Assembly (NCBI RefSeq): GCF_910592395.1
Contig: NC_088309.1
Span: forward strand, 11,968,599 to 12,032,598
Direction: 5' to 3'
DNA length: 64,000 nt
Origin: Lineus longissimus
Taxonomy: Eukaryota > Nemertea > Pilidiophora > Heteronemertea > Lineidae
In this document: positions 10,685-59,500 of the stretch, piece after piece
Numbering within the stretch: the first letter of the stretch is position 1
Layout: every line of letters begins with the position of its first letter
Program-made: the position numbers and the translations under genes
Notes under the pieces: generated by a model
What the model was told of the DNA's origin: nothing
Database searches by the model: none
The model's input: only the letters and a program-made list of their open reading frames with translations

Positions 10685-13600
10685 ATGGATGGTGAGCGAG
10701 CTGACTGTCATCTTCAAGACCCCCGTGTGGTCAACAAGAAGACCTATTCAACTCTTTATACCTTGCCAACTCTCCGATATGCAAATGTGGTAAAAACAAT
10801 AGTATTCATTGATGGAATTTCATCACTGGCATTATGGTTGACAGGTAAGGAGAGTGTTCTTCTTTATTGTTCATTGAAAATGAGGAATGATCAAGCAGCA
10901 TTAGAAAGACAGAGTCATAGTAAAGTGTGAGATAAATCGAAACTGACCAAATTTCTGTGCTGAAGTATTGCCACATGAAAAACATCGGGCATTTTTAAAA
11001 ATCGATTGTTCAAGGGAGGAACATTCTTTGATGCTAAAAACTTACATCAGTTATGTTATTGTTAGCCTCACACCTGAAAAATCCCAGAAAGACGTCATGG
11101 GGTCGCCGACGGTCTGGCACTTTCGAAAATGACTCAACAGATGTCTTTCTGACGCACTACAGTCTTGTGATGTTTCACGATGTATATGCAAGTGATGTTT
11201 CTTTAAGAAATTGGGGGGGGGGGGGCAGAGACCTTTGGAAATTTCCGAAGAAAAGGGAAAACTTAAAGAAAAAGGGCTGGGTTAGTGCCCTTTGATATGA
11301 GTAGAAAATGTTTTTTAATTATCTATTCTGAAAAAAGTCTGGGAACACTTTTAGAAGGGGCAGCCCTCCTTTTTCATCTAGAGTGGTAGACTACTTGGCA
11401 AGTAAGGTAAAGTGGTACAATTATAGTTCCAGTACAGCTACAGCCCATACTGTGTTGAAAAAAGCTAGCAGTACACAATAAAGCACACAAATGCTATAAT
11501 TGTAGCGGGGCTATAGTTGTACCACCTTACTTACCTTTTGTTTTCTAGTCCCTCTTTGTTCACAACCACGTGAGAATGTATCAATTTTTTTCAGGTGGCC
11601 TGTCACAGTACTTCATCGACAACATTGTCCATTTCCATTTCCTTGAATCAGTATTCGACCTCGCCCTTCTTGCCACAGTAAAGACAATTTTGGTATTCAC
11701 TCTTTTGGGTTTCTTGGAGCATGCCTCAATGGACCAGATAGAGCGACCGTACAATCGCTCATTATCGACAAAGAAAAACACACTTCATGCAATTTATATA
11801 ATATTTCTGTTGTTGTGCATGGCATTTGCCATTACGAAAGGTGGTTTGATTCTCAATGCTCTTTTGAATGACCCAAAGTATCCTGGCATGCATCTGACAT
11901 TCAATATCCTGACAATAAGCGCAGCTGTGTTTAGTATAATTGAGTTCTTATTGGCATTGGCAAGCTTTGCTTTCATGCGGAGGCTGAAACTCGGTCGGAT
12001 CAAACACATGTATAATGACAACGGACAGGAGGTCGATGAAGAAGGAAAGGTCATCAAGAAAGGTACAAGTCTGAGGCGTTTGGCGACACTTGCCAAAGAG
12101 GTGGGTAACCATTCTGTTTGCCTCAGCTAAATTTCAGCACTTGCGCTACAATTTTGAAAAAACACTATCTATTTGATGTCAGTTTCTTCTAATTGAAAAA
12201 ACTGTGGTAAGCAGAGTACAACGCTATAACTTGTCAGTACCCCTACTATAATTACACCATCATTAAATGGAAATCTGCAAGTACTGCACAGATTTTAACC
12301 TGGAGAAAGTGTCTGAACTTTAACATCATTTTCTTTCGAAGTTGCAGTCACTGCCATTTGACAGGAAAATTTCACACTTTTAGTGTCGGGTTACGGCAGC
12401 ATTTTAGGGCCACTAAAGAAGAAGAAAAAAAGAAAACATTTCTCGTAATAACGACTTTTAATCTCGTAATAACAACTTTCTTTCTCGTTATAACAACTTT
12501 CTTTCTCGTTATAATGACTTTTAATCTCATAATAACGACTTTATTTCTCATTATAATGACTTTTAATCTTAAGTCGTTATAACGAGAATGAAAGTCGTTA
12601 TTACGAGAAATAAAGTCATTATTACGAGATTAAAAGTCGTTATAACGAGAAAGAAAGTCGTTATTACGAGATTAAAAGTCGTTATTACGAGAAAGAAAGT
12701 CGTTATTACGAGATTAAAAGTCGTTATTACGAGAAATTTTTTACCATGACTAGGTATTTTGTATATCGAAAAAAACGGGTTAATTCTATAGTTCTGATGT
12801 CAGGCAAGGGAAAAAATTGTTTTTCGCTTTGAATGAATCTACAGTGCTATTGTATTTTTCATTAAATTTTTAGGAGCTGCCATTACTGGTGTCTGGTTGC
12901 GTTTGTCTCATTTTGTCAAGTGGGACAACCATGGTTGCCCCTCTCTTGTTTGGACAGGTTGTTGATGCAGCACAGAAATCCATGGGTACGTACACAAGGT
13001 GGCCACAGTATATTTCCCGGAAGTTGATGGCAGCATCTTCTAAAGGACCACCAGTCCATGTGTGCTGGTACTTAGTATTTTAGGGCAGCCATCCATCAGC
13101 CGACTTCAGCTCGGGCTAAAAACCGCATCCTAAGGTTCACATATATTTGATGTGAGAGGTTTTGGTTTTCAGTGCATCTCAACAGTGTTTTACAGTGTAC
13201 ATTTCTTTTGTAATGAAGATGTTGAGTTTCTTTTTATGACTCCAGCTCCTCCCTCTGGGAGCTGGAGTCAGTATTGTTTTCGCTCAGGTTTCTCGTCCAA
13301 TCACGTGACCTCTCCAACACTCGATAATGCACTCTTTTCGTCCACGTTTTAGGCCAATCTTCGGCATGAACATGAAATCTAATAAGCGCAGTACTTAAAT
13401 CAGATGTTTCTCTCGCCTTGAAAACATTCCTGGGTAAAATCCATTGAGATTAGCCGAGTTAATCTACTTTTTCCGTGCTTAAAATCTCTGCCGCTGAATT
13501 CTATAAATAGAAACTATTAACATCGTGGCAGTGTGGTTCCCATTGTGCGCCCTCCCACTTCACACCATGTCAGGAAGTTTTACGGAGAGGGAGGGCGTAT

Positions 13601-16600
13601 GTGTAACACTACAGCGTAGAGGAGGTATAAATTGTTAAAGGGGTACACCGTTCGTAATTACTTGTGGTCCAGTTAAATAGAAATCCACTAATACACAATG
13701 CCGTACTGCAGTTATTGTGAATACAAATTTGTTTAAACTTGGTATTCATGGTATTTGTATATCAGTCTACACAACAGCAATGTTGAAATATATATTTAGT
13801 ACGTATTTCCACAATCGGACATTTTTAAATTCAATTACAAATGTAAAAATTTTTAACGAACGGCGTAAGCCTTTAAACCAAAAGCATTAGAAAGTTATCC
13901 GGTTTATACAAAATCAACCAGAAGGAGAAAAGTTGCACTTCTATTTTCAGCTGAACTCAATAAGAGCGTCCTGATACTTTTGGGTGTGTACGCTGGTGGA
14001 ACAGTTTTTTCAATGTGTCGATCATGGACATTCACCATCGCCGGACAGCGGGTTGTTGCATCACTGAGGCAGCGTCTCTTTGCCAGGGTCATCATTCAAG
14101 ATATTGCCTTCTTTGATGTCACAAGGTACGATAGATTAATGTTTTGCACAGACAAATTTCTCTTAAGAACTGCTCTTGCTCTTGTGCGGTACTGAACAAT
14201 TTAGAGCACTGAATGAAAACTTTGATGAAGCGAAATTGTGTACTTTCTAAATTGTGATTTTTTTGCCCTGTGAGAAGGTAGAAAATGTGTCTACTGATGA
14301 CTTAGCACTGCAAATGTATGCATTCAGATTTCAACTGTCGAGACACTAGACTGTCGATCACACCAGTAGAGTCTGTGGACCAGACACCATGAGCATTACT
14401 GATGTACTGTACAACCTCTTGTAAAAAGACTTTCTCTTGATACAGGCGTGTCTGAATTGTAATTTTGACCAAACCTATCAGTGACAATAACACATTCCAT
14501 CATATTTGTCACATGGTTCACACAGACACACATTTGATATATGTTTATTGTGTTAGCTGCAGACCAGCTGACAGTTTGATTTATGACATTGTGTCAGGAT
14601 TGACCTCAAACAGTCAAACATGACTATTAACGAGTTCAGTGTTTCCATGTTTTGACAGTTTCAATCACTTTTTCTTTCTTAACATCAGAACTGGCGAGCT
14701 GACCAATCGATTGTCATCGGACACTGGTGTCATTCAGAATGCAGTGACTGTGAATATCTCCATGCTGTTGCGGAACATCCTGCAGGTCTTGGGGTCAATT
14801 GTGCTGATGTTTGTGATAAATCCTGCCCTGACTGGTGTGCTCTTGGCTGTCGTACCAATTGTTTCTGTTGGAGCCGTCCAGTATGGTAAGTGCCTCCTCC
14901 CCTGACTCTTGCCCACAGTACCCATTGTGTCAGTAGGAACCATCCTATGGTAAGTGCCACCTGCCCTGAGTGGTGTACTCTTCCCTACACTACCCATTGT
15001 GTCAGTAGGAACCATCCTATGGTAAGTGCCACCTGCCCTGAATGGTGTACTCTTCCCTACAGTACCCATTGTGTCAGTAGGAACCATCCTATGGTAAGTG
15101 CCACCTGCCCTGAGTGGTGTACTCTTCCCTACACTACCCATTGTGTCAGTAGGAACCATCCTATGGTAAGTGCCACCTGCCCTGAGTGGTGTACTCTTCC
15201 CTACAGTACCCATTGTGTCAATAGGAACCATCCTATGGTAAGTGCCACCTGCCCTGAGTGGTGTACTCTTCCCTACAGTACCCATTGTGTCAATAGGAAC
15301 CATCCTATAGTAAGTGCCACCTGCCCTGAGTGGTGTACTCTTCCCTACACTACCCATTGTGTCAGTAGGAACCATCCTATGGTAAGTGCCACCTGCCCTG
15401 AGTGGTGTACTCTTCCCTACACTACCCATTGTGTCAGTAGGAACCATCCTATGGTAAGTGCCACCTGCCCTGAGTGGTGAATTCTTCCCTACAGTACCCA
15501 TTGTGTCAGTAGGAACCATCCTATGGTAAGTGCCACCTGCCCTGAGTGGTGAATTCTTCCCTACAGTACCCATTGTGTCAGTAGGAACCATCCTATGGTA
15601 AGTGCCACCTGCCCTGAATGGTGTACTCTTCCCTACAGTACCCATTGTGTCAATAGGAACCATCCTATAGTAAGTGCCATCTGCCCTGAGTGGTGAACTC
15701 TTCCCTACACTACCCATTGTGTCAGTAGGAACCATCCTATGGTAAGTGCCACCTGCCCTGAATGGTGTACTCTTCCCTACAGTACCCATTGTGTCAATAG
15801 GAACCATCCTATGGTAAGTGCCACCTGCCCTGAATGGTGTACTCTTCCCTACAGTACCCATTGTGTCAGTAGGAACCATCCTATGGTAAGTGCCACCTGC
15901 CCTGAATGGTGTACTCTTCCCTACAGTACCCATTGTGACAATAGGAACCATCCTATGGTAAGTGCCACCTGCCCTGAATGGTGTACTCTTCCCTACAGTA
16001 CCCATTGTGTCAATAGGAACCATCCTATGGTAAGTGCCACCTGCCCTGAATGGTGTACTCTTCCCTACAGTACCCATTGTGTCAGTAAGAACCATCCTAT
16101 GGTAAGTGCCACCTGCCCTGAATGGTGTACTCTTCCCTACAGTACCCATTGTGACAATAGGAACCATCCTATGGTAAGTGCCACCTGCCCTGAATGGTGT
16201 ACTCTTCCCTACACTACCCATTGTGTCAGTAGGACTATCCTATGGTAAGTGTCTCCTGCTCTGCGTGGTGTACTCTTGCCTGCAGTACCTATAGTGTCTG
16301 TGAGAGGTGTCCAGTACGGTGACTGGTACTCTTGGCGATCATAACCATAATCTGTTGGAGGCATCCAAAATAGTAAATTTGTAATGCCATAACCTCATTT
16401 TGTTCGTGTAACAAGATCGAAAAATGTTTTTTGTAATTTCGGGTTTTTGATCTGAAACTGAGAAATTTACAGAAGTCACGGTGTTTCTTGTGTTTTTATC
16501 AGTTTCTTTGACCTCACTTGGTCATGTTTGTTGTTTCAGTTTCCCCAGGTTTTTAACTGGCAGCAGTAATGCTATGAAATTGCTTATTGGCTAACATGTT

Positions 16601-19600
16601 TTTTGTTTTACAATATTGGTGAAATTCGTGGTTTCTTTTCCTGCTGTATTTTTATTTAGACTTATTTTTATCTGCTGTCAGGTATGTTTGTGAAGAAAAA
16701 GCAACAGAAATTCCAAGATCGCCTGGCAGAAGCCAGCACTGTTGCTGAGGAGTGCATCTCAAGTGCACGGACAGTCCGCATGTTCAGCAGTGAAAGGGCG
16801 TCCATCAAAGCTTATGATGAAAAGGTCCAATTAAGTTATCAAGTTGGGAAGATTCTTGCAATAGCTGGAGGTAAGTAAGGGTGCAGTGGAGTACTAGTTA
16901 GGGTGAAAGACTCATTGTCTAAATCAACACTGGTTTGGGCACCACTCTCCCAGGTCCAGCTTGAAGTGTAAGTCGATTAACCCTTTAGCACTCCAGCGTT
17001 TTAATTTTTTTCCATCTGTCCCTCCAAAAAAATACCTAAAAATGAGCAATTTCAACATGAAATTTGTAGTATTACTCGTCAGTAAACGGATAACTCCATG
17101 ACTGAACAGAAGTTCGGCTCAGAACATCGGCTCAAGTAAAACGATGTTTTTATTCAACACTTTCACGTCAGATGTCGCCCAAACCTGCAGGCGTTTGGAG
17201 GGCTGAAGGGTTAAAGCTGAACTCCTCTTCATTTCTGTAACCACTGTGAGCATTTAAAACGACCCAACAAAACATCTGAGGGGATAAACGTAGTTTGGTG
17301 AATATTCAAGAGACTGTAACAGCTGAACTGTTAAAACACCAGCTGAACTCAAAAGAGGGAGACAAGCTGGCACCTCACATGGTATGGTAGTCAATAATAT
17401 TTTCAAATGTGATATTTGCATTTTAGATAGACAGTTTATTAAACAACCTTCTTTGTTTCCATGCAATCATCTTAACTTTCCAGGTGCTTTTGAGGGAGTA
17501 ATCGGCCTTGCAGCATATGGTGCCATTGTGTTGGTTCTGTGGTATGGTGGCAAACTTGTTTTTGAACAGGTTATAACTGCAGGAGTTCTTTTCTGTAAGT
17601 AACAAAAATGCATCAAACCTTAACCCTTTCGCTGCGGCAGCCATTTTTCAACCAGTGCCGCCGTGTGCTGACAGTCGATACCAATAATAAATATTGGAGC
17701 TAACTTTAAACTGAATGGTCAAAACCATTAGAAAGTGTCGCCATCAATACTATTAGGATGAAACTAAATATTCCCAAGTTTGTTTTGCGTATTTAGAGAG
17801 GTTGCCAGCAAGTGCACGTCACCCTCACAACATCATGGGACCATGTACATGACGTGCTATGCACGTCACCCACAGCGAAAGGGTTAATATCTCTATTGAA
17901 CTGAGCCGTGGGCTTTTTACAAAGGTTGAAAGTGTTAGACCTCCACTCCTTTGCATTTTGGCTCCAAAATTTGTAAAAGCGATAAACCAATTCAACTTGG
18001 CTTTGATATCTAATTACGATGATATAGCACAGGCAGATAAGACAGGGCTTTTCTTATTCAAGCTAGGTCCATCAAAAAGTTCCTCTTTCTCTGTTTCAGC
18101 ATTTATGTTGTACACGCTACAAGTCTCGATAGCATTCGGCACTCTGTCATCGCTCTATGGAGACTTCATGAAAGCAGTCGGAGCGTCGGTGCGTATCTTC
18201 GACTTGCTCGATCGAGTCCCGGAGGTACCGTGCCAGGGTGGTGACAAGCCTATCGACTTTGACGGCAGTATCAGTTTCCATAATGTTCGGTTCACGTATC
18301 CATCTCGGCCTGATACGGAAGTTTTGAAAGATGTCAGTTTTTCTGTCCAGCCCGGGCAGATGGTCGCACTCGTTGGTCCATCAGGTGGAGGCAAGTCGAC
18401 CATTGTTAGTTTGATAGAGCGTTTCTATGACCCTCGTTCAGGATCTGTTGATGTAGGTGAGTAGAAAAGCCAAAAGTCCATCTCTTTGTTTAACAAAGCA
18501 AGCAAAATTGTTTTAGTTTGTGAGATAAAATTTAGCCTTCTGGGGGTTTGTTCTGATGAATGGTAGGAGTTATGATAATTTGTCAAGTCCGTCATATTAA
18601 GAAGTTTAAAAAGAAAAACTTATTAGAGGGTTCATCTGGACATGTTATTTCCCTCGATTAATCGGTGGTATTCCAAATGATGAAAAAATGTGCGCTCTCT
18701 AATTTGTAAAACTAATAAAACTTGTTTCTGAGGTAAAAAGAAAAAAAGTGTTGTTTATTTCACAGGTTCCTATAACCTGAAGACCCTGGATCCAGAATGG
18801 TTACACGCGAAAGTGTCGATGGTTGGTCAGGAACCAGTCCTGTTTGCATCCTCCATAAGGGATAATATAGCATATGGACGGGAAGCCTCGCTGGAGGAGG
18901 TAAGTTGTTGGAAGACGACTGTCCAACGTTTTTTTCAGCATAGGTTTCTTCTGGCTACCCTGGTTCCCCCCTACTGTCCGAAGTGCTTAAATATGCTATG
19001 GTATTGTCTCATGAGCTAAAATGTATATGGGAGCTCACTTACTTGACTTTTCATTTTTTGAAAAGGATGTTTGTGCTTAAATTCATGGACATGAAAATAA
19101 AGGTACTGTACATGTTTTTTTAACCCTCAGGATTGCAATAATGTATTATTTATGGTCTCCACACTCTCAGTGGAGACCATCTTGATATCACTGGGTAGGT
19201 AGGTTCTGTTTCTTGTTCTTCTTCCACAAAACATTTATGGAGCTTGTCCAGCGTACGGCCAAACTGCTGAATAGATCAAGGATCAATCACTCCAATCCCA
19301 TTGAAGGAAATTCGATGCATGGAATATCACAAAAAGATTTTCAATATTCTCATTATTTCCATGACTTTGAAGGACTTTGAAGCATTTTTTGCTCAGATAT
19401 CGTCTTCTCCCAACATGCCGAAGCCGCGATTCAATCTGACATGCGCAGAGGCGAGATTCTGACACATTTGCATAAGCTCCGCCCCATCATAATGACGTCA
19501 TTCTTCTCATGGCCGAACCGATCCACATGGAGTTGGTCGAGCGAAGAACGCGTTAGCAGTTTAGTGACTGTTGAATGTAGAAATCAAGGGTAGGGGAGCC

Positions 19601-21589
19601 AAAGTAATAGCCTTAAATGCTTATCGATAATCCATCCTGCCCATCTAAAATAGTTTGGGTGCTGTTTGAATGATTATTGAGCGTGTTATTTTGAGAAAGA
19701 GCGAGCGTCCGGAAATAGATCATGCGTGAATCGGCATGCAGATAGGCGGAATTTCCTCGCTATTCTTTTCCCCGTTGTTTGGAAACTCTACGCCAACTAC
19801 TTCAACTTTCACTAGTACTCCATCTATAACTGCACCTAGGCCTCCTGGCCCTAGCCCATCACGACACATATCCAGCTCTTATTCCCAAAACCAAACTGTG
19901 GCTTCATATGAAGCAAAATCACCATCCATTGCACAGTTTTCCCTATGTGGGGACCATCAAATTTGCTGTAAAGCAAATTTCTCAATTCTAGTTTATATTC
20001 AGCCTTGCCATAGTCGTATTTTACCAATATAAATCTAACTATGATGTTGTTGCCTTCCAGGTGATAGAGGCATCAAAGCAAGCCAATGCCCATGACTTCA
20101 TCCTGTCATTTGATGAAGGGTATGATACATTAGTGGGTGAGAGGGGTGTCAGGTTGTCTGGAGGACAGAAACAGAGGGTTGCTATAGCCAGGGCACTCAT
20201 AATGAATCCTGATGTATTACTCTTGGATGAGGTAGGTGTTTTTGGCTTAATAGAAATGTGTTACAATCTATTCATTGGGTGCATAAAGACATGAGTTGTA
20301 CAGCTACTGCCACATGTTGGAAACCCCTGTTTGAGACCATTAACAGGAATTGCTATGAGAAGTCGGTTAGTGTTTTATTTGGTCGCAGAAATGTAGAAAT
20401 CATGTTGGTTGCAAAATTATATTTAAGGAAAAACCAAACTTTGGTTTTGCAAAGTTGCCAGGCTCATTTTGAGTAACTTTCCACCTATTTCAGGCAACAA
20501 GTGCTTTGGATGCAGAAAGTGAACACTTGGTGCAGGAGGCTATTGATAATGCGATGAACAACAGGACTGTTTTGGTCATTGCTCATAGGCTGTCGACAGT
20601 AAAACATGCATCAAAGGTAAGGCTGTCTCTTGTCTCTTTCATATATATTTCTATTCAATGGAATTTCAGAAATTAAGAGCTTTTTTTAACACAGAAAAGG
20701 AAATGCTGGGCGGAAATTACATTGTTTAGCTAGTATGTTGTGTGCGCATCAGTTTAAATAGTGTGGTGGCCATCTGGACTGGTGTAACAGTACTGATCTC
20801 TGTCAAGTTTGATAACAGATGCAAGCGCCAGGTATTAGTGAGCCTGGCCAAAAACAAAATGATTTTTATATACAAGTGTTAGTGAGCCTGGTCAAAAAAC
20901 AAAATGATATGCAAGGTGTTAATAGTGAGCCAAGTCAAAACAAAATTGATATGCAGGTGTAAGTAAGCCTGGTCAACACCAGAGTGATATGCAGGTGTTA
21001 GTGAGCCTGGTCAACACCAAAGTGATATGCAGGTGTTAGTGAGCCTGGTCAACACCAAAGTGATATGCAGGTATTAGTGAACCTTGCCAAACATCAAGGT
21101 GATATGCAGGTGTTAGTGAGCCTGGCCAAACATCAAGGTGATATGCAGGTGTTAGTGAGCCTGAACATAAACCAAGGTAATTCATGTAGATGTTAGTGAG
21201 CCTGGCCAAACACCAAAATGATATGCAGACCTATCAAAGAGCAATACAGATGAAGATCCAATTTTTTGAAGAATTGGCCATAAAGGGTAAAAATGGCTAA
21301 AGACAGATATCAAAACTATCCTTGAATTCAACAACATCTGTGATTTATTGGCTATTCTGATGGCACTGTTTTATTCCTTTTTCAGGTGTTAGTGATAGAC
21401 AAGGGACAGGTGGCTGAACAAGGTACGCACGATGAACTTCTTGAGCGTGATGGTGTGTACAAGAAACTGGTTCTCAGACAATTGATGGCAGGAAAGGCAG
21501 GTGATAAGAAAGAAGGGGACAGTAGTCTGGAGCAGTCGGAGGAGGTGGCTGAGTCGGAGAAGGTGGCAACAGTACCTGATGTAGATTAA
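10685..21589 (+). CDS. ABCB-family (TAP-like) half ABC transporter
   Basis: Twelve coding exons: 10685-10844, 11595-12100, 12874-12985, 13951-14125, 14689-14885, 16682-16870, 17484-17594, 18100-18456, 18766-18899, 20061-20231, 20494-20616 and 21386-21589. They sum to 2439 nt (812 aa plus stop), all in phase. The N-terminal ~220 aa carry extra membrane helices, then comes a six-helix ABC transmembrane domain (about 225-520) and one nucleotide-binding domain: A-loop Tyr in RFTYPSRPD, Walker [10 protein letters not shown] (about 576-584), Q-loop VGQEPVLF, signature LSGGQKQR (about 679), Walker B VLLLDE (about 699-704), D-loop SALDAE and H-loop AHRLST. One membrane domain plus one ATPase means it must dimerise. 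Overall sequence resembles ABCB9/TAP and even more the plant TAP2-type ABCB proteins (TGELxxRLSxDT, HEFIxSF-like, VAExGTHDELL). Probable role is peptide or small-molecule export at an internal membrane; substrate unknown. The last 35 aa are acidic and low-complexity. Confidence 0.93.
12430..12745. repeat. Long inverted repeat (hairpin) built of ~19-21-bp units
   Basis: The left half (about 12438-12570) repeats 'CGTAATAACGACTTTTAAT' and 'CTCGTTATAACAACTTTCTT'. The right half (about 12572-12740) repeats the reverse complement, 'AAAGTCGTTATTACGAGAAA' and 'AGTCGTTATTACGAGATTAA'. The centre is near the CTTAAG at about 12570. Each unit itself contains a near-palindrome (CGTTATAACG). It lies in the intron between ABC transporter exons 2 and 3 (12101-12873), so the transcript could fold into a stem of about 130 bp. 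Confidence 0.85.
13635..13876. mobile_element. TTAA-flanked MITE, family 1
   Basis: It starts TTAAAGGGGTACACCGTTCG and ends CGAACGGCGTAAGCCTTTAA, giving imperfect inverted termini with TTAA at both borders, as expected for piggyBac-mobilised elements. About 240 bp, non-coding. A second copy is at 63533-63716. It lies in the intron before exon 4 of the ABC transporter. Confidence 0.7.
14886..16310 (+). repeat. 72-bp minisatellite derived from an exon end plus its 5' splice site (~20 units)
   Basis: A tandem array fills most of the intron after ABC transporter exon 5. Successive CATCCTATGG phrases are 72 bp apart (14941, 15013 and so on). The consensus is closely related to the last part of exon 5 (about 14820-14885) plus its donor: exon CTGCCCTGACTGGTGTGCTC against unit CTGCCCTGAGTGGTGTACTC, exon GTACCAATTGTTTCTGTTGG against unit GTACCCATTGTGTCAGTAGG, and both then reach TATGGTAAGTGCC. 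I count 20 units. All but the terminal one keep a GTAAGT donor (two read ATAGTAAGT). Fourteen have CAG before TACC, and six have CAC (near 14991, 15131, 15347, 15419, 15707 and 16211). The first and last units are more diverged than the middle ones. Open frames along both strands of the array are products of the 24-codon period, not genes. Confidence 0.93.
16977..17214. mobile_element. TTAA-flanked MITE, family 2
   Basis: Left end TTAACCCTTTAGCACTCCAG; right end read on the opposite strand TTAACCCTTCAGCCCTCCAA. Both borders are TTAA. 238 bp, non-coding, in the intron after ABC transporter exon 6. Consistent with a non-autonomous piggyBac-like element. Confidence 0.75.
17620..17887. mobile_element. 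TTAA-flanked MITE, family 3
   Basis: Left end TTAACCCTTTCGCTGCGGCA; right end, opposite strand, TTAACCCTTTCGCTGTGGGT. TTAA borders, 268 bp, non-coding, in the intron after ABC transporter exon 7. The first nine bases of its TIR are shared with the family 2 element, suggesting related transposases. Confidence 0.78.
19152..19180. repeat. Perfect 11-bp inverted repeat
   Basis: ATGGTCTCCAC, a 7-base loop, then GTGGAGACCAT, inside the long intron after ABC transporter exon 9. It may be an internal stem of an unrecognised short element. The rest of that intron (18900-20060) shows no supported feature. Confidence 0.5.
20815..21235 (+). repeat. 38-bp minisatellite sharing the acceptor and start of the next exon
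   Basis: About ten units with a 38-bp period of the form GATATGCAGGTGTTAGTGAG followed by CCTGGTCAACACCAAAGT. It lies in the last intron of the ABC transporter. The unit core CAGGTGTTAGTGA is identical to the 3' splice site and first codons of exon 12 (CAG then GTGTTAGTGA at 21383-21395). The outer units are more diverged. Confidence 0.85.
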
Positions 21590-21782
21590 TGATCTTGACT
21601 ATGATCATTGACTATGATCATCTGAATGATTCTAACACCTTGGCAACCATGTAGAGAATGCCAGCAACAGTGACAAAAGAAGAAAGTCAAAAGTTGGAGG
21701 AACGAATTGAGATGTATGTGTGATCATGAATCAATGGTAGTAGATTATTAGAAAGTATTAGGTGTAAAGATTTATTGTATTA

Positions 21783-33917: not shown

Positions 33918-36900
33918 CTAGCGGCATTCCCAGACTTTCAGAAATTGGTCAACACTCCCTGTTATCACAAAGGGAGCACTTCTATGGAAATCTGAAGAAA
34001 ACAGCAAGGCAATTTCAAAGACTTATTGAGCATGTGTTCGAATAGACTGAAAAGTTTGATCCTCTATTAAACCTTTAAGGCCACAATCAAATATCACAGA
34101 CACTGCTATCACCATGATTTCTATTTCACACCAATTATACTTCTGAAGCAAGCGATCTAACTTCAGCTTGGCTTTCTAACAAGAGTCCCAGATTTTGCAG
34201 TTTGGGCTTCTACTGGCACAGTCGTTGAGGTACTAGTAATCTTAGACAACCTCTTATACGCAGTACGGTAAATAAAACCAGACCCCCAGACTAGAAAAAG
34301 AAATTGAACTGGATTCATATCTAGATCCATGTGATAAGCATGGAACGCAGCTATCCACCACCTCTGCTAAAAAAGTGAAATTTGACTAAATTTACCCCGC
34401 ACAGTATCCAGGCCACACCAATTCAATACCTCAGATAGCTGACAAACCTATTCCACTAATGTGGAAAAAACGTAATCATGCTTACCTAATGAAGTAACAA
34501 AGTGCAAGTGCGCATCCAGCGTTTTCATGTTCCTCTTGTTTGAGATATCCCATGTTCGTAGCGTCTTGTCGTCAGAAACGCTAATGATGTATTTACCCTG
34601 GGGGTGGAACAGCAGGCCACGCACCCAGTTGTCATGACCAATCTGAAAATAATTATGCGAGATTTAGAAATATACTGGAATATTAAGGACACTGCTGGGA
34701 CTGACAAATGCTGTTCTTAATAGAGGTGTCCTGATTAGAGAGGTCAAATTGAATGGTAACAACCAATTTGGGACCAAAACTAGTGTCCTTAACTCTTTAC
34801 ATGCGCTAGCCGCCGCTGGTCGGCGCAAAAAACTTACGCTGTTCTCCCAGGAGCCGCCATTACTCGGCTCCATTCAAACAGTGCGAAACTCCGGCAAGCC
34901 GACTACAAGCTACTCCAACTTTAATGTATCGTAATTTCTTATTGGCTGGCTCCATGGTGACCCTATTTGAATGGCCAATAAGAGATAAGCTTCTATTTTC
35001 TATTCAGGTCACTCCGTTCTAATTTAGTATTCATGAGGCATGAATAATAACGATGTATTGGCGGGGTTCCCCAGGAAGTTGACCTCGTCGGCCATTCTTA
35101 AACGTTTCTTTAATCTTTTTTTTTGATTGACGTGCCACATTGATTTATTTGATTCGAGCTCCGGATCAGAATTTGAAGGTTTTGCAGATTCAGATATCAA
35201 TGTTTCGGTAGGAAGTGATGATAGTGACTGGGACTTAGATTTTTATTATAAACATTTTGTGTCGGATGAGGACGATAGCGACAGTGATTTCTCTGGCTTT
35301 GAGCCAGTGGAAGACCCGGATGATGGAAAGTAGAAAATTTTACGGCGATTTGTAGAAATTTTTTTCTCTCCAAGTTTGCAGGCCTTGTTCTCAGTTACTT
35401 TTCGTTAGAATTCAAAATAAATTACATGAGTTTATGCGGAATTTAATTCTTAGTTACTCCCCAAAATTTTAGCCCTGTACTATGAACAGCAACGGAGATA
35501 ATATCACTTATGTAAACACTACCTGAAATACGGCCGCGTCAGTGACGCGCTCCCGGGAAACTATATCAGAATAATGACGCTGTGTATTCAGGACTTTGAC
35601 GCTATGACGCACGCGGGTCTAGCGTATGTAAAGAGTTAATAGAGAGGTTGTCCTTAATAGAGACAAACTTGAAGCTCTCATCTAGTATTAAAGAAGGGCT
35701 TCCACCTCATATTTTTCTCTGTAACCATTCCGCTTGACATTTTCAGTTTCATTTGGAAGAAGAACAGGAGAACCGACAAACCGAGTTGACCCTTGATATG
35801 ACAGGAATCCAAACCCAACACAGATGACCGGGCTTGGAATTGCGGATGTAGTCAAACCATTATCAGGCACAGATCTTTACAACCACTAAACCACCTTCTA
35901 TTGTTGAACAATCAAGAGGAAAGGAGCAACAGGCCAGTGAGGCCACTACAATATTGTAGTCAAACACAACTATAAATTTCACCTTTCAGCATCAAGGACT
36001 ACTGGGAGCAATTCTCCTCCCAAGGGTGGAAGGCTACTTACCAATGTGAATAAGCATGTGTGGACGCCAACGTCCCAGACTTTAATTGTCTTGTCTCTTG
36101 AACCAGAGATCAGGAATGGGCCTTCACTTGAAGTCCCTCGCTTATCCTGAAATTAACAACAATATATCTGATTTAACTGAACTGAGATATTTGATAAGCT
36201 AATTTGCCAATCACAGTTAAACTACATGTAGAATTAAACTTGAACTAAACTGCCTACACACGTCTAATGATAACATTTACAAAGAGGTTTGGCATTGATC
36301 TCAATGCCTAAGATTTGTCAGCAATGCTAATGTTTTCTTAGCCGAATATGTCAACAAACTAACAAGTTAAAAGTTAAAGTTAAAAGCTAAAAAAATTCAA
36401 AATGTCTGATGCCAATGATGACATACCTCATTCCCAGCAGCTTCATTGATAGCCTGTCGAGCAGATTGCGGAGCCCAGGCAATGCATTCGACCACGTGTT
36501 CATGCTCGCGCAATTCCACCTTGCACTCACGAGTGGCAGTCACCCACACTCGAACAGTCTGTAAAGCAAGGGCATAGAAAGATATGAACACAACTTGGAG
36601 ACGACTTTATGATCACATTCGGGTGACAAACACTGAAGTGTGTTAGAGAAATCAACCAACCATTAGCGTCTTTAACCACCAACCAACTGTGGTGAGGCAG
36701 ACAATTTACTATCTTTTCACAATGCAATGCACATCACGAATAGACTCTACTTCTTTGTAAGACTAAAGGACGGTACCTGACAGTGTCAAAATACATAATA
36801 TCGACCTGCATTTCAATTTGTTTTCATGATAGTGACCCCAGCGGGAATTAACAAGCAATCACATTTAAAGGGGTGTGATCATTCTCCTTGATTCTTATTT

Positions 36901-39900
36901 GTATGAGCCAGATTTTGATTCGAAACTAAATAACTCCAAATCTTTCACAATATAGGTGGAGTCCCTTGCTTGTATTAAAAGAAGCCACCTAAACCAACTC
37001 TGCTCAGTAAGTAGAGAATTTAATGCCTCAAAACAAAACCTTACCTGATCATTCGAACAGGAAGCCAGTAAGGACCCATCAGGGTTAACCCGTACCATTC
37101 GAACCCAATCTCTATGACCTGTATATGTGCGGGTATTGAATCTGAAATTTTATGACAAAGTTTTAGAATTAAAATTAAATTAAAATAAAGTAAAGGTTTA
37201 AGTAACCAGGTTGCATGTTGCACCAAGACTTGTTTTGTTACCAGTAGGGACTGCAGAAGTTACAAGAGACAAGTAGTGCATCAATGGATAGCCATCTTCC
37301 ACTTTCAAGCTTGGCCAGTTATGCACAGACTGCCACAGTGCGGTTGAGGTTCTGTGTATCATACGGTACAAATATTGATCAGCAAGCGCACACAAACAAC
37401 TTGGAAGATGTGTGCACCTATTAGTTTGCACTTCAGAACAGCCCACAACAGATAAACGCTGTAAAAATAATAAAGGTCCCCCTAGCATTATCTCCAACTC
37501 CTTCACTAACTTATCCAGCTGCAAAAGTGCAAACATCTCTTGTTGTTGTCATTCCCTAAAGCAACTCTAATCCAGATGAAAATACTTTAGACGGCTGCTT
37601 AACAACACAATTGTCATTTCAAGGAAGAACTAAGAAAGACTTGACTTCTAGCTATAAAACCAACAGGCTGAATATATCGTAGTACTAGGTGTTGAAGTGT
37701 AATCTATTTGTGAAAGAACTCTCTTGAGAAAGTTGCGCTCTTTTTGGATTGCTGCAAAATCAAAACTAGGGAGCAGTGAACTTACCCAGTGTTGACTTCC
37801 CACATCTTTATAGTTTTATCCCTAGATGCTGATACTAAGAAATCTCCGCTAGGTAAGAAACATACACTCGATACATTGTGATCATGCCCTGAAAGGAGAT
37901 AAGAGATGGAAAATTATTCAGCTACAGCCGAGTTTAGTATTCTCCGCTCGAAATTTCTTCGGCCAGATGCCATAACCATATTTTACCTTCGTTTCCATTT
38001 AGTCCAGGCTGGCAGCAACATAAATCTGTCCAGGTCCTCAAGTGGAAAAACTAAATTTGCCTGGATGCATTACCTGGACGAAAAGCATAGTGGAGAACCA
38101 CTGTTTTTATAGCATCGGTGACAAATTGACAAACAGGACAAAAGGGTTTTCAAAACACAGGGTAATGAGATCATAAGAGACCAAACTCACGACTCAAAAG
38201 TCGCAATGAAGCCAAAGTGGAACACTGACCACAATAATGTTTTTATCACTCAGGCTTACCGTGGAGTGTCTTCATACAAGTCCATACGTTATCTTGAAAA
38301 TCCCATAGTTTTACTGTCAAATCTGCTGAACAAGAGGCTGAAATAGAACAAAAGATGATGATAAATGAGTTTGATGACAATGATCGATCCAATGCATTGT
38401 TTTAAACTCCAAACCAAACCATGCATCTCCACAGACCACCCTGCTGTCAGTGACAATTTCACCTGCAGTGAACAGCCCCAAGAGAAATGACGTTTTCCTG
38501 CCAGAAAAAAAAATAATGAGGTGAAACGATGACAGTGGAATGACCTAAAAAATTACTACCATGGCTAAGATTCCCTTTAGGCCTGCAAGTCCACAGAAGT
38601 TCACACATATTTTTTTCATGTACAATGTATTTGTGGAAAATCTTAAAACTACATCTGACATAGACACTGGCCAAAAAAGATTGCATTATTCAAAATAATT
38701 GAAAAGCATGTTATCAATGATAAGTCTCCTTTGATTATAACATGAAGGCTCTTACCAAGTATTTTGCCAGTATGATCAAAGGCTATATCTTGAACCGAAT
38801 CCGTGTGACCTTTCAGACTCTTGACATATTCGCCGCATTCATAATCCCAGATCTGGAAAGAAAAGAAACTTGACATTTTAAAACAGCCTTTCCAGTAACT
38901 TCATCAATAGAGTAAAATCAGGGTCCTTGATATCCAAAAATAAGAACTGCATTGGGTATTCAATCAAAAGAAGGGACCAGGTTTTCGAAAAACCTCGGTT
39001 TTGGCCTACATTTAATTAGCTTCATCCTCGTACTGTTTGATGAGACAACCAAAACCTAAAGCTCACTTTTAGTTCCTTAATCAAAACTCATGACAATGAA
39101 ACAAAACCAACCATAATTGAAGCGTCTTCGCTGCATGATACCATGTAATTATAATGTGGGTGAAATATAACTCTAGTAATCGGGCTCCTATGTCTCTTCA
39201 ATTCAAACTTGGCTGGTGGACGTGGAATCCAATCGGCAGCATTTCGATCTTTGCGTGTGGGTCCGCCAGAGGTGATTTCCTTCTCGGCCTCTGATAGTTT
39301 GGCCTCCAGGTCCATCACCTTGGTAACAGAAACAGTTGAGTACAATGTTATTGCTTTAACAGGGCGCATTAAAATTTTCTTGGTCAAGCAAATCCATTTC
39401 TGTGATAGCACGTACGTTTAATGGCTTTAACATGTTTAATGGCTTACGCAACATTATCTACAGACTAACAGTGCCAACAATAAGGAAGTATAAGGGTAAA
39501 CTACAAATTATTACCCAATCAAAATAGTATGGTTTTTACGTAATGAAAGATGATGCAAGTCTATATATGTAGGTCTATACAGTGTTCACATTATGAAAGT
39601 GCAGAAAGTACGTAGTTTTTTCTCACCTTTTTCTGCAATCTTATCACTGATGTCCATTTCTTCTCTAATAAACCACTGTATTTCTTCTCTATGTCTTCAG
39701 GCTGCAATTCATAGAAAACAGAGAAAAATTCTAACTTCACCACATGTTGATGTACACCAGACTAGACAATGTTAAAAACACCATCATTATTCCATGCCAA
39801 CTTGCTAGTACTTCAGACTGTAATGCTAACAGAATGGGTCAAAATATTTACATGGACACAAAAGAAATTGATACGCACGCAAGACATCAATACTTTTGGC

Positions 39901-50279: not shown

Positions 50280-51311
50280 GGCCAGGGCCATTGTGCTCAC
50301 CTCATGTGGAGGAAAGATGGATAAAGAGCATGGTCTTGTGTCATGTAGTGTTAGGTTTGATGTAGGTCCAAGCAATTACAATTTCCCCAAAATGGCCAAT
50401 TTACAGTACATTCGACCTCTGTGACCTTGAAAAGTAGGTCAAATCAAAGAAGACCCGGGTGACACATTGAATGGTTGTTAGAATTAGATGTACCTATGAT
50501 ATAAAATTGGTGCCAATCGGGCAAGTCATTACTAGGAATAATGGCATTTTGAAGAATTTAGGATTTGGCCCCCTCCCTGGAGGCCAAACGGCAAATCAGA
50601 TCGCACCAAACTTCGGTACCTGAGATCACCTGACCAAGGGGTACATGTGTACTTAATTTGTGATCAATAGTCATTGCAGTTAAGAAACGTGCCATTGTTA
50701 CGGCCTGACGGCGAATTTACGCCATTTGACCTCTGTGACCTTGACAAGAAGGTCAAATTAAAAACCTGTGTGACATATACTGTATGGTGGTTAGATGTAC
50801 CCATGATATCAAATTGGTGGCAATCGGGCAAGAAGTTAAGGAATAATCACATTTTTAAGGTTTTTGGATTTTGCCCCCTGGTGGTCAAGTGGTGAATCAT
50901 ATTGGACCAAACTTCGGTCCCTGAGATCACCTGACTAAGGGGTAAATGTGTACCAAATTTGGTATCAATAGTCATTGCAGTTTAGAAACGTGCCATCGTT
51001 ACATCCTAACGGCCAATTTACACCATTTGACCTCTGTGACCTTGAAAAGGAGGTCAAATCAAAAACCCGGAGGATATATGATGCACCTTTGCTAGAAGTA
51101 CCTACCATATTTTTTTCAAAATTTCCCGACTACTATTGAGGGAGATATTGCATATTTTCACTTTTAACGTTTGGCCCCCTGGTGGCCAAACCATGAAACG
51201 AATCGGACCGAAACTTGGTCTCCCAGGTGTCATTACATAAGGGTACATGTGTACCAAGTTTCAACTCAATAGCTCTAACAGTTACGAAACGTGCCCTGCT
51301 AACGGACGACG

Positions 51312-56500: not shown

Positions 56501-59500
56501 CTGGCGTGGAAATCACCTGCTGTTGTGGAAACCTTGATGGTATCCTTTTCTTGGAGAAGCTCTGTCATCTTTGTTCCATCACGGATTTCGCCTCCATATT
56601 TCTTGACAAGGTTCTGCAAAGGATCATCAAACAAAATACTGTACAATTGATAAATCAACCGAGACTTACCTGTAAGTTGAAGGTTGATTGGAATTCTATC
56701 GAGCTATCGATCACGTGCGGGATCACATGCCCGCCCAAGTTTAATTTTTTGGGTTATGTTGTGATATGATACCCTTCCCGTGATCCCTTTACGTGTTCCT
56801 GAGGCTTTCGACGCTTTAAAGACTGACTGCTGATCTACTACGCGTATCTCGTGACCTAGTGAAGTGATTGATAGTGAGATAGAATTGATATTAATGTTCT
56901 AATGCAATGCCATGAACTTTCTATCCCACAGATGGTACCAGCATCAAGAATGACTATTATCTCATCTGCAAGAGACGACCACTGTGTTAAAGGAGTTGGC
57001 TATCCTGCTATAAGTATAAGGCGTTATCACAGACCACCGTTGCATCTTTGTGTGAAGGACCTGTTAACAAGTGTTGAAAAAACTAGATGCAAGGAGAGTT
57101 GTAATCGTGATACTCTAGATATGAAGATCATGAATCAATTATAGTTAATACTCCAGATATGGACACAATGAGACCAGCAGAGTTGTGATTGCTTCAGCAC
57201 TACTCAAGATATGAATACAATGACTCGATGAGTGGTGATGGTTGAAACACTACTCCAGATATGAAGACAATGAGATGCTGAGAGTGATGTTAGTTAAGAC
57301 ACTAATCCACATATGAAGACAATGACACAATGAGAGTAGTGATTGTCGAAGCACTAATCCACATATGAAGACAATGACACAATGAGAGTAGTGATTGTCG
57401 AAGCACTAATCCACATATGAAGACAATGACACAATGACAGCGGTGATCGTCGAAGCACTAATCCACATATGAAGACAATGACACAATGACAGTGGTGATG
57501 GTCGAGGCAATACTAATATTCCACATGAAGACAATGACACAATGAGAGTGGTGATGGTTGAGGCAATACTAATATTCCACATATGAAGACAATGACACAA
57601 TGACAGTGGTGATGGTTGAGGTACTACTCCAGATATGAAGACAATGAGGGTGGTGTGATGGTCGAGGCAATACTAATATTCCACATGAAGACAATGACAC
57701 AATGAGGGTGGTGATGGTCGAGGCAATACTAATATTCCACATATGAAGACAATGACACAATGACAGTGGTGATGGTCGAGGCAATACTAATATTCCACAT
57801 ATGAAGACAATGACACAATGACAGTGGTGATGGTCGAGGCAATACTAATATTCCACATGAAGACAATGACACAATGAGGGTGGTGATGGTCGAGGCAATA
57901 CTAATATTCCACATATGAAGACAATGACACAATGACAGTGGTGATGGTCGAGGCAATACTAATATTCCACATGCAGACAATGACACAATGAGGGTGGTGA
58001 TGGTCGAGGCAATACTAATATTCCACATATGAAGACAATGACACAATGAGGGTGGTGATGGTCGAGGCAATACTAATATTCCACATATGAAGACAATGAC
58101 ACAATGAGAGTGATGATGGTTGAGGTACTACTCCAGATATGAAGACAATGACACAGTGAGGGTTGAGGTACTACTCCAGATATGAAGACAATGAGGGTGG
58201 TTATGGTCGAGGCAATACTAATATTCCACATATGAAGACAATGACACAATGAGAGTGGTGATGGTTGAGGCAATACTTATATTCCACATATGAAGACAAT
58301 GACACAATGAGAGTGGTGATGGTTGAGGCAATACTAATATTCCACATATGAAGACAATGACACAATGAGAGTGGTGATGGTTGAGGCAATACTTATATTC
58401 CACATATGAAGACAATGACGCAATGAGAGTGGTGATGGTTGAGGCAATACTAATATTCCACATATGAAGACAATGACACAATGAGGGCGGTGATGGTTGA
58501 GGTACTACTCCAGATATGAAGACAATGAGGGTGACGTGATGGTCGAGGCAATACTAATATTCCACATATGAAGACAATGACACAATGAGAGTGGTAATGG
58601 TCGAGGCGATACTAATATTCCACATATGAAGACAATGACACAATGAGGGTGGTGATGGTTGAGGTACTACTCCAGATATGAAGACAATGACACAATGAGG
58701 GTAGTGATGGTCGAGGCAATACTAATATTCCACAAGACAATGACACAATGAGAGTGGTGATGATTGAGGCACTACTCCAGATATGAAGACAATAGCACAA
58801 TGAGAGTGGTGATGATTGAGGCACTACTCAAGATATGAAGACAATGGCACAATGAGATTGGTGATGGTTGAGGCACTACTCCAGATATGAAGACAATGAC
58901 ACAATGAGAGTGGTGATGGTTGAGGCACTACTCCAGATATGAAGACAATAGCACAATGAGCTGAGTGGTGATGATTGAGGCACTACTCAAGATATGAAGA
59001 CAATGGCACAATGAGATTGGTGATGGTTGAGGCACTAATCCAGATATGAAGACAATGACACAATGAGAGTGGTGATGGTTGAGGCACTACTCCAGATATG
59101 AAGACAATGGCACAATTAGTGGTGATGGTCGAGGCACTACTCCAGATATGAAAACAATGACACAATGAGAGTGGTGATGGTTGAGGCACTACTCCAGATA
59201 TGAAGACAATGAAACAATGAGATTGGTGATAATTGAGGCACTACTCCAGTTATGAAGACAATGACTCAATGAGAGTGGTGATGTTTGAGGCTATTCTGAA
59301 TATATGAAGGCAAAGGCACAATGAGAGTGGTGATGATCGAGGCACTACTCCAGATATGAAGACAATAGTAGAATTAGAGTGGTGATGGTTGAAGCACCAT
59401 TCCAGGCCAGATATGAAGACAATGGCACAATAAGAATGGTGATGTTTGAGGCTGTTCTGGATATATGAAGACAAAGACACCATGAGAGTGGAGATGGTTT

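Follow-up and report, generated by a model that had tools for sequence, protein, structure and literature searches.

Mirages, as described in amphioxus, are minisatellite-like copies of an exon/intron border that lie beside the true border; they occur in genes including Adh3 and the globins BflGb6 and BflGb9, and many, but not all, of their units bear AG/GT signals (PMC3087553). Unit lengths are given as 10-72 bp in Adh3 and 150-160 bp in the globins, and the BflGb6 mirage, with haplotypes of 6 and 3 units, is homogenised in its interior, the edges being excluded (PMC3087553). According to the same report, mirages show length polymorphism, splicing is reportedly undisturbed, and the arrays are proposed as a source of new introns. 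Troponin C and PGBD5 are further amphioxus mirage genes (PMC3902484), and in these two papers (PMC3087553, PMC3902484) the name is applied to cephalochordate genes.

Precedent outside cephalochordates comes from human genes in segmental duplications, where internal tandem repeats at exon-intron boundaries accompany 27 intron modifications and the activation of cryptic splice sites (PMC2812944). As reported there, these boundary minisatellites average four units of 30 bp, have given new introns with transcript support, and vary in copy number among recent primate paralogs. In addition, some Drosophila introns have been attributed to tandem duplication of exonic sequence (PMC2891723). A literature search, with subscription journals mostly outside its scope, recognised no further description of such arrays.

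The window analysed here is a 64-kb stretch of DNA that contains an ABCB-type transporter gene on the + strand. Eleven exons, from about 11577, which is the arbitrary beginning of the frame read, to 21592, could be joined into an uninterrupted reading frame of 764 residues. Its product matches ABCB transporters of solved structure, and ABCB9 is the sole chain among the 60 listed whose best stretch begins N-terminally (residues 8-733). The shortest joined exon measures 111 nt, and the gene's 10 introns range from 262 to 1796 nt. The longest of them (14886-16681, +, 1796 bp; donor ATG|GTAAGT, acceptor CTGTCAG|GTATG) follows a 197-bp exon at 14689-14885 (+), called exon 5 in the preliminary description and recognised by its open frame, a PF00664 match, its splice sites and the joined frame. 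The authentic downstream exon at 16682-16870 (+) is placed by splice sites, the joined frame and its match to ABCB structures. Across the intron the joined frame reads QYG|MFVKKK and aligns with solved ABCB transporters.

This intron carries a tandem array that adjoins the authentic border. TRF reports a 72-bp period with 19.4 copies at 14905-16298, a score of 2473 and 95% matches; cutting at the donors yields 20 in-register units (14886-16318), followed by a degraded copy of the exon end, unit 21, which lacks the acceptor AG and was delimited by alignment to the exon (16320-16376, +). The array of about 20 copies of an exon border within one intron that the preliminary description had proposed is therefore borne out, as is its start at 14886, whereas the end it gave, 16310, lies just short of the end of unit 20 and misses the relic. 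Unit 1 (14886-14949, +) measures 64 bp owing to an 8-bp internal deletion. Units 2-19 (14950-16244, +), delimited by TRF and unit alignment, form a homogenised core, in which the 17 units 2-18 are exactly 72 bp and unit 19 is 71 bp; relative to the core majority, every one of these units has 1-3 changed sites, and unit 19 additionally lacks one base. Unit 20 (16245-16318, +), at 74 bp, is intermediate between exon and core.

All 20 units begin with GTAAGT, more than the 'nearly all' first noted. The donor at the end of a unit reads ATG|GTAAGT, identical to the authentic donor, in 17 of 20, ATA|GTAAGT in two and ACG|GTGACT in unit 20. At the acceptor position we found AG in 14 units (1, 3, 5, 6, 9, 10, 11, 13-18 and 20), most of them preceded by a good pyrimidine tract, and AC in six (2, 4, 7, 8, 12 and 19), reproducing exactly the earlier counts. 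The implied exon has the 31 nt first noted in 18 of 20 units, but 30 nt in unit 19, one of those with AC, and 33 nt in unit 20; the gap is 41 nt long in 19 of the units, but 33 nt in unit 1. Units combine 11 variable core columns differently, and some are identical (e.g. units 2, 4, 7 and 8). Differences between units show no clear rise with distance, with 2.5 sites between neighbours and 2.0-3.6 between others. A search of the 391-Mb genome (391,118,348 bases in 30 contigs) matched the unit at least 20 times, always within this array. A minus-strand open frame of 501 residues (14734-16239, -) continues along the array since the 72-bp period is a multiple of three; it looks mechanical and not like a gene.

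The final 64 exon bases (14822-14885) plus the donor are the template of the unit. Aligned with 14822-14889, across the donor at 14885/14886, the unit scores 59, whereas nothing else in the window scores above 25 and the maximum among 200 dinucleotide shuffles is 24. This scored alignment upholds the derivation from the exon end and its donor that had been proposed at the outset, and disposes of the possibility, named there as decisive, that the unit resembles exon 5 no better than random sequence. Over 72 aligned sites the exon and the core majority share 56 bases, leaving 16 diagnostic differences. Exon states are retained at 6/16 of these in unit 20, at 7 of the 11 ungapped sites in unit 21 (5 gapped) and at 2 of the 15 ungapped sites in unit 1 (1 gapped), and at none in each interior unit counted (2, 10 and 19). 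The stretch around unit 21 (16319-16400) scores 50 against the exon, a value reached by 0/2,000 shuffles (maximum 28) and 0/4,500 random pieces of the window (maximum 32); from 16326 onward it scores 44 against the exon versus 26 against the core consensus. The core majority is matched at 54/72 sites by unit 20 and at 35/52 by unit 21. Exon states are thus kept in units 20 and 21 and absent from the interior units counted; by this evidence the outer edge seems to be the oldest part, and the interior has been homogenised. Unit 21 is thus probably the oldest edge of the array, in agreement with the suggestion that the degraded end marks the ancestral border.

The donor and the acceptor of the units appear to differ in history. 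The exon's own acceptor (14687-14688) lies beyond the copied segment, which indicates that the unit acceptor is new. At the corresponding position the exon reads TTGGCTGTCGTACC, unit 20 TTGCCTGCAGTACC, the core TTCCCTACAGTACC and unit 21, which has no AG, TTGGCGATCATAACC. Five substitutions separate exonic TTGGCTGTCG from core TTCCCTACAG, and unit 20 (TTGCCTGCAG) has three of the five. By this comparison the donor was inherited and the acceptor arose later within exon-derived sequence, so that the array had been correctly described as an exon end with its donor, but not as one that brought its acceptor along. The acceptor G is replaced by C in 6/18 core units, making this the third most mixed of the 11 variable core columns, after columns 18 and 53; it is therefore not strictly held by selection, and selection on the array was rejected as unsupported. 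Using simple matrices of general splice-site frequencies, we scored the unit donor, whose sequence is that of the authentic donor, at 10.5 (real donors of the gene, 5.3-11.6) and the core acceptor at 8.2 (the gene's 10 real acceptors, 4.2-14.2). On the + strand outside the array, 10 of 3,599 GT sites reach the unit donor score and 66 of 3,865 AG sites the core acceptor score.

The array resembles the amphioxus mirages as these are reported (PMC3087553): its 72-bp unit reaches across an exon/intron border that the host gene really has, its copies adjoin the authentic border inside the intron, AG/GT signals are present in most units, and the interior is homogenised while the edges have diverged. 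It is longer than BflGb6, with 20 units and a relic compared with 6 or 3 units, and unlike the amphioxus arrays its acceptor appears to have been created in exon-derived sequence, which is why most units form complete pseudo-exons. Like the human boundary repeats (PMC2812944), it is a minisatellite at an exon-intron boundary that supplies extra splice sites; as in the Drosophila AG/GT duplication model (PMC2891723), tandem copies place a matching acceptor and donor on either side of an exonic segment. In contrast to the human case, it concerns one gene, with about 20 copies in a pre-existing intron, and in contrast to the model of intron creation its copies lie within an existing intron, as candidate new exons or introns. 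Undisturbed splicing and length polymorphism are features of the amphioxus arrays and transcript support of the human ones, whereas the present array is known from the sequence of one assembly alone.

We put at roughly 0.82 the probability that the array is a mirage, that is, an intronic minisatellite from a tandemly duplicated exon/intron border that is mostly neutral for splicing. The first duplication would have occurred by slippage, end joining or unequal crossing-over, and expansion and homogenisation would have followed via unequal exchange; along the way, five substitutions would have produced a chance acceptor, with unit 20 as an intermediate. Most transcripts would still join the authentic exons across the array. 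The array would be near-neutral because its 41-nt gaps and 31-nt pseudo-exons are presumably too short for this animal's spliceosome, the shortest intron of the gene being 262 nt and its shortest exon 111 nt. Occasional use of a unit would cause a frameshift or a stop, except that use of unit 20 would add 11 amino acids. On this reading new exons or introns could be drawn from the array, which would not be a working regulator; it probably arose as a by-product of repeat instability and is tolerated, and a splicing role is probably absent. Neutrality is not guaranteed, since the unit sites are strong, and the fact that human boundary repeats can alter splicing (PMC2812944) also speaks against assuming it. 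Given the strength of the sites, their occasional use is likely.

We traced what inclusion of units would do to the reading frame. The 14 AG-bearing units can be combined in 16,384 subsets; the frame stays open for two (none, and unit 20 alone) and is shortened for the other 16,382. In the examples traced, including one 31-nt unit shifts the frame and leads to a stop in the next exon, and including two does likewise. Three copies had been expected to restore the frame; they do restore the length, but the frame is lost, as translation of the third copy runs into a TAG within it (..CAR TAG). Extending the exon to a unit donor (units 1, 2, 3 and 20 were tried) gives an early stop, as does intron retention. 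Since the frame is never left open once a 31-nt unit is included, a poison-exon effect of these units is possible.

This consequence underlies an alternative reading, in which the array acts as a poison-exon or splice-decoy reservoir and lowers or regulates transporter output, either through U1 snRNP engaging the many donors or through 31-nt inclusions and nonsense-mediated decay. Nearly every inclusion would truncate the protein, as counted above; 17 of 20 donors equal the authentic one, two more keep GTAAGT, the 14 acceptors mostly follow good pyrimidine tracts, and the human repeats demonstrate that boundary arrays can change splicing (PMC2812944). On the other hand, six acceptors have been lost, the acceptor column is among the most variable, the gaps are just 41 nt, and the amphioxus counterparts are reported as harmless to splicing (PMC3087553). 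We consider a regulatory array of this kind unlikely. Two stretches near the donor were folded in search of RNA hairpins and were unremarkable (z -1.80 and -1.03). In OGT intron detention, decoy exons reportedly hold introns unspliced; the units here likewise consist of intronic splice-site pairs able to engage the spliceosome, but they are known as sequence and their sites look unselected.

Unit 20 could instead be an alternative in-frame microexon (16286-16318), its product repeating VPIVSVxxVQY within a membrane segment. Its implied exon of 33 nt is the only one with an AG acceptor whose length is divisible by three, its inclusion keeps the whole frame, and within this stretch 6/8 differences from the exon fall at third codon positions. 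However, this bias is no proof of selection because constraint on the real exon alone predicts the same pattern. The donor of unit 20 (ACG|GTGACT) is weak, at 6.1 compared with 5.3-11.6 for the real donors, and inclusion would add 11 residues, an arginine among them, to the membrane domain of a conserved transporter. A functional microexon thus seems improbable to us, more so than the reservoir considered above.

Long arrays are error-prone in assemblies, and the copy number could be inflated or the array misplaced. We regard such an artefact as highly improbable, as the units differ in their combinations of the 11 variable columns, the edges have diverged, and exon and array are contiguous within a 29-Mb contig. 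Least credible of all is the recursive-splicing track suggested earlier, in which the intron would be removed stepwise through the units: serial AG and GT are present in quantity, but the unit acceptor AG is followed by TACC and never by GT (ACAG|TACC or GCAG|TACC), so that no unit forms a zero-length AG|GT ratchet site, and the intron is merely 1.8 kb.

Read as a largely neutral mirage, the array bears on how tandem duplication can give rise to new introns and exons; intron creation by tandemly duplicated AG/GT segments is said to have been treated by Rogers 1989, Zhuo et al. 2007 and Gao and Lynch 2009. It would represent a large mirage outside cephalochordates whose copies can be ordered, from the oldest edge through an intermediate to a homogenised core, and whose acceptor evolved in former coding sequence. 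It also offers a natural test of how the spliceosome treats 14 ready-made pseudo-exons, whether it passes over them or uses them. A doubtful extension of this reading holds that animals in general gain exons and introns by way of mirages, and that some of the units here are in fact spliced in. If it were true, a duplicated donor-side border would gain an acceptor via a few substitutions within former exon sequence, multiply and be tested unit by unit, and this gene would show the steps side by side: unit 21 without an acceptor, unit 20 intermediate and in frame, and the core with a full acceptor.

The affinities of the host were assessed from the 129-residue region around the source exon. Among the best 120 of 393 matches, identity over this region is 71% for Lingula anatina, 68% for the chiton Liolophura, 66% for the bryozoan Watersipora, 65% for the nemertean Tubulanus and 64% for Branchiostoma belcheri; Nucella reaches 72%, though over 68% of the region. 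We infer from these matches that the host is a spiralian. Amphioxus was rejected as host (Lingula 71% versus Branchiostoma 64%), and the array thus differs from the named mirages in its host. Elsewhere in the window lie a LIS1-like WD40 gene (34448-39417, -), identical to the mammalian protein at 39/64 positions of a 64-residue stretch, a METTL16-like RNA methyltransferase gene (PF05971; 45295-47555, +) and an FAD-dependent oxidoreductase gene (PF01266; 56410-56703, -). LIS1 and METTL16 are presumably neighbours in human too.

A second array, of 10 units of 37-44 bp (20829-21228, +), was found by TRF and alignment in the last intron of the ABCB-type gene, ahead of the last exon (21386-21592, +; placed by the joined frame). 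Four of its 10 units start with the 13 bases CAGGTGTTAGTGA, which are identical to the acceptor border of that exon (21383-21395). Against this acceptor the 38-bp array scores 26, exactly at the border, compared with 24 at the next best place in the window and a shuffle maximum of 25. The score was reached by 0/4,000 random window stretches and by 20 of about 4,000 random 52-mers. When the 20 splice borders of the gene were tested with 300 draws each, p = 0.003 was obtained for the donor of intron 14886-16681 and for the last-intron acceptor, the next lowest value being 0.093. A second mirage, on the acceptor side, is suggested but not established by these data, because 20 of the random 52-mers match the score and 20 borders were tested. 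Two other candidates were rejected as exon borders: the 52-bp array at 57152-59499, of about 44 copies (best score 26, shuffle maximum 28), and the 21-bp arrays at 12439-12736 (21 and 22, respectively). The latter are two arrays that adjoin each other in intron 12101-12873 of the ABCB-type gene and run in opposite directions, one with the unit TCTCGTAATAACGACTTTTAA and the other with roughly its reverse complement. A 301-bp repeat is located at 50394-51189.

We also surveyed other loci of the genome, covering the best 30 of 122 Mito_carr matches and 30 of 54 ABC_membrane matches (29 besides this gene); many of the loci overlap, edges of domain matches were used as exon ends, and many of the Mito_carr genes surveyed, to judge by their long open frames, may have few introns. 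The 30 Mito_carr loci contained no exon-edge copies, and reading three small repeats near exons revealed nothing. Matches were present at three of the 29 other ABC_membrane loci: a single 20-nt match among short repeats (L048), a simple ATC run (L053), and a copy in another ABC gene on contig C16, near 4,402,308 (L065), where exon bases 1551-1633 recur at 1685-1772, just behind the donor. The L065 copy scores 51, compared with a maximum of 34 in 1,000 shuffles and 27 at the best of 28 other loci, and looks like a single degraded duplication of an exon fragment. Because these 59 other exon matches yielded no second exon-edge array, the survey does not show mirages to be frequent in this species. 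Viral contigs contained no match to a 28-base piece of the unit and no relatives of two exons. Finally, a metagenome protein (P0003) carries a threefold MTFILTVFA repeat, its last copy altered, just upstream of the start of a related ABC exon; this may be a further case of an intronic array that abuts an exon.
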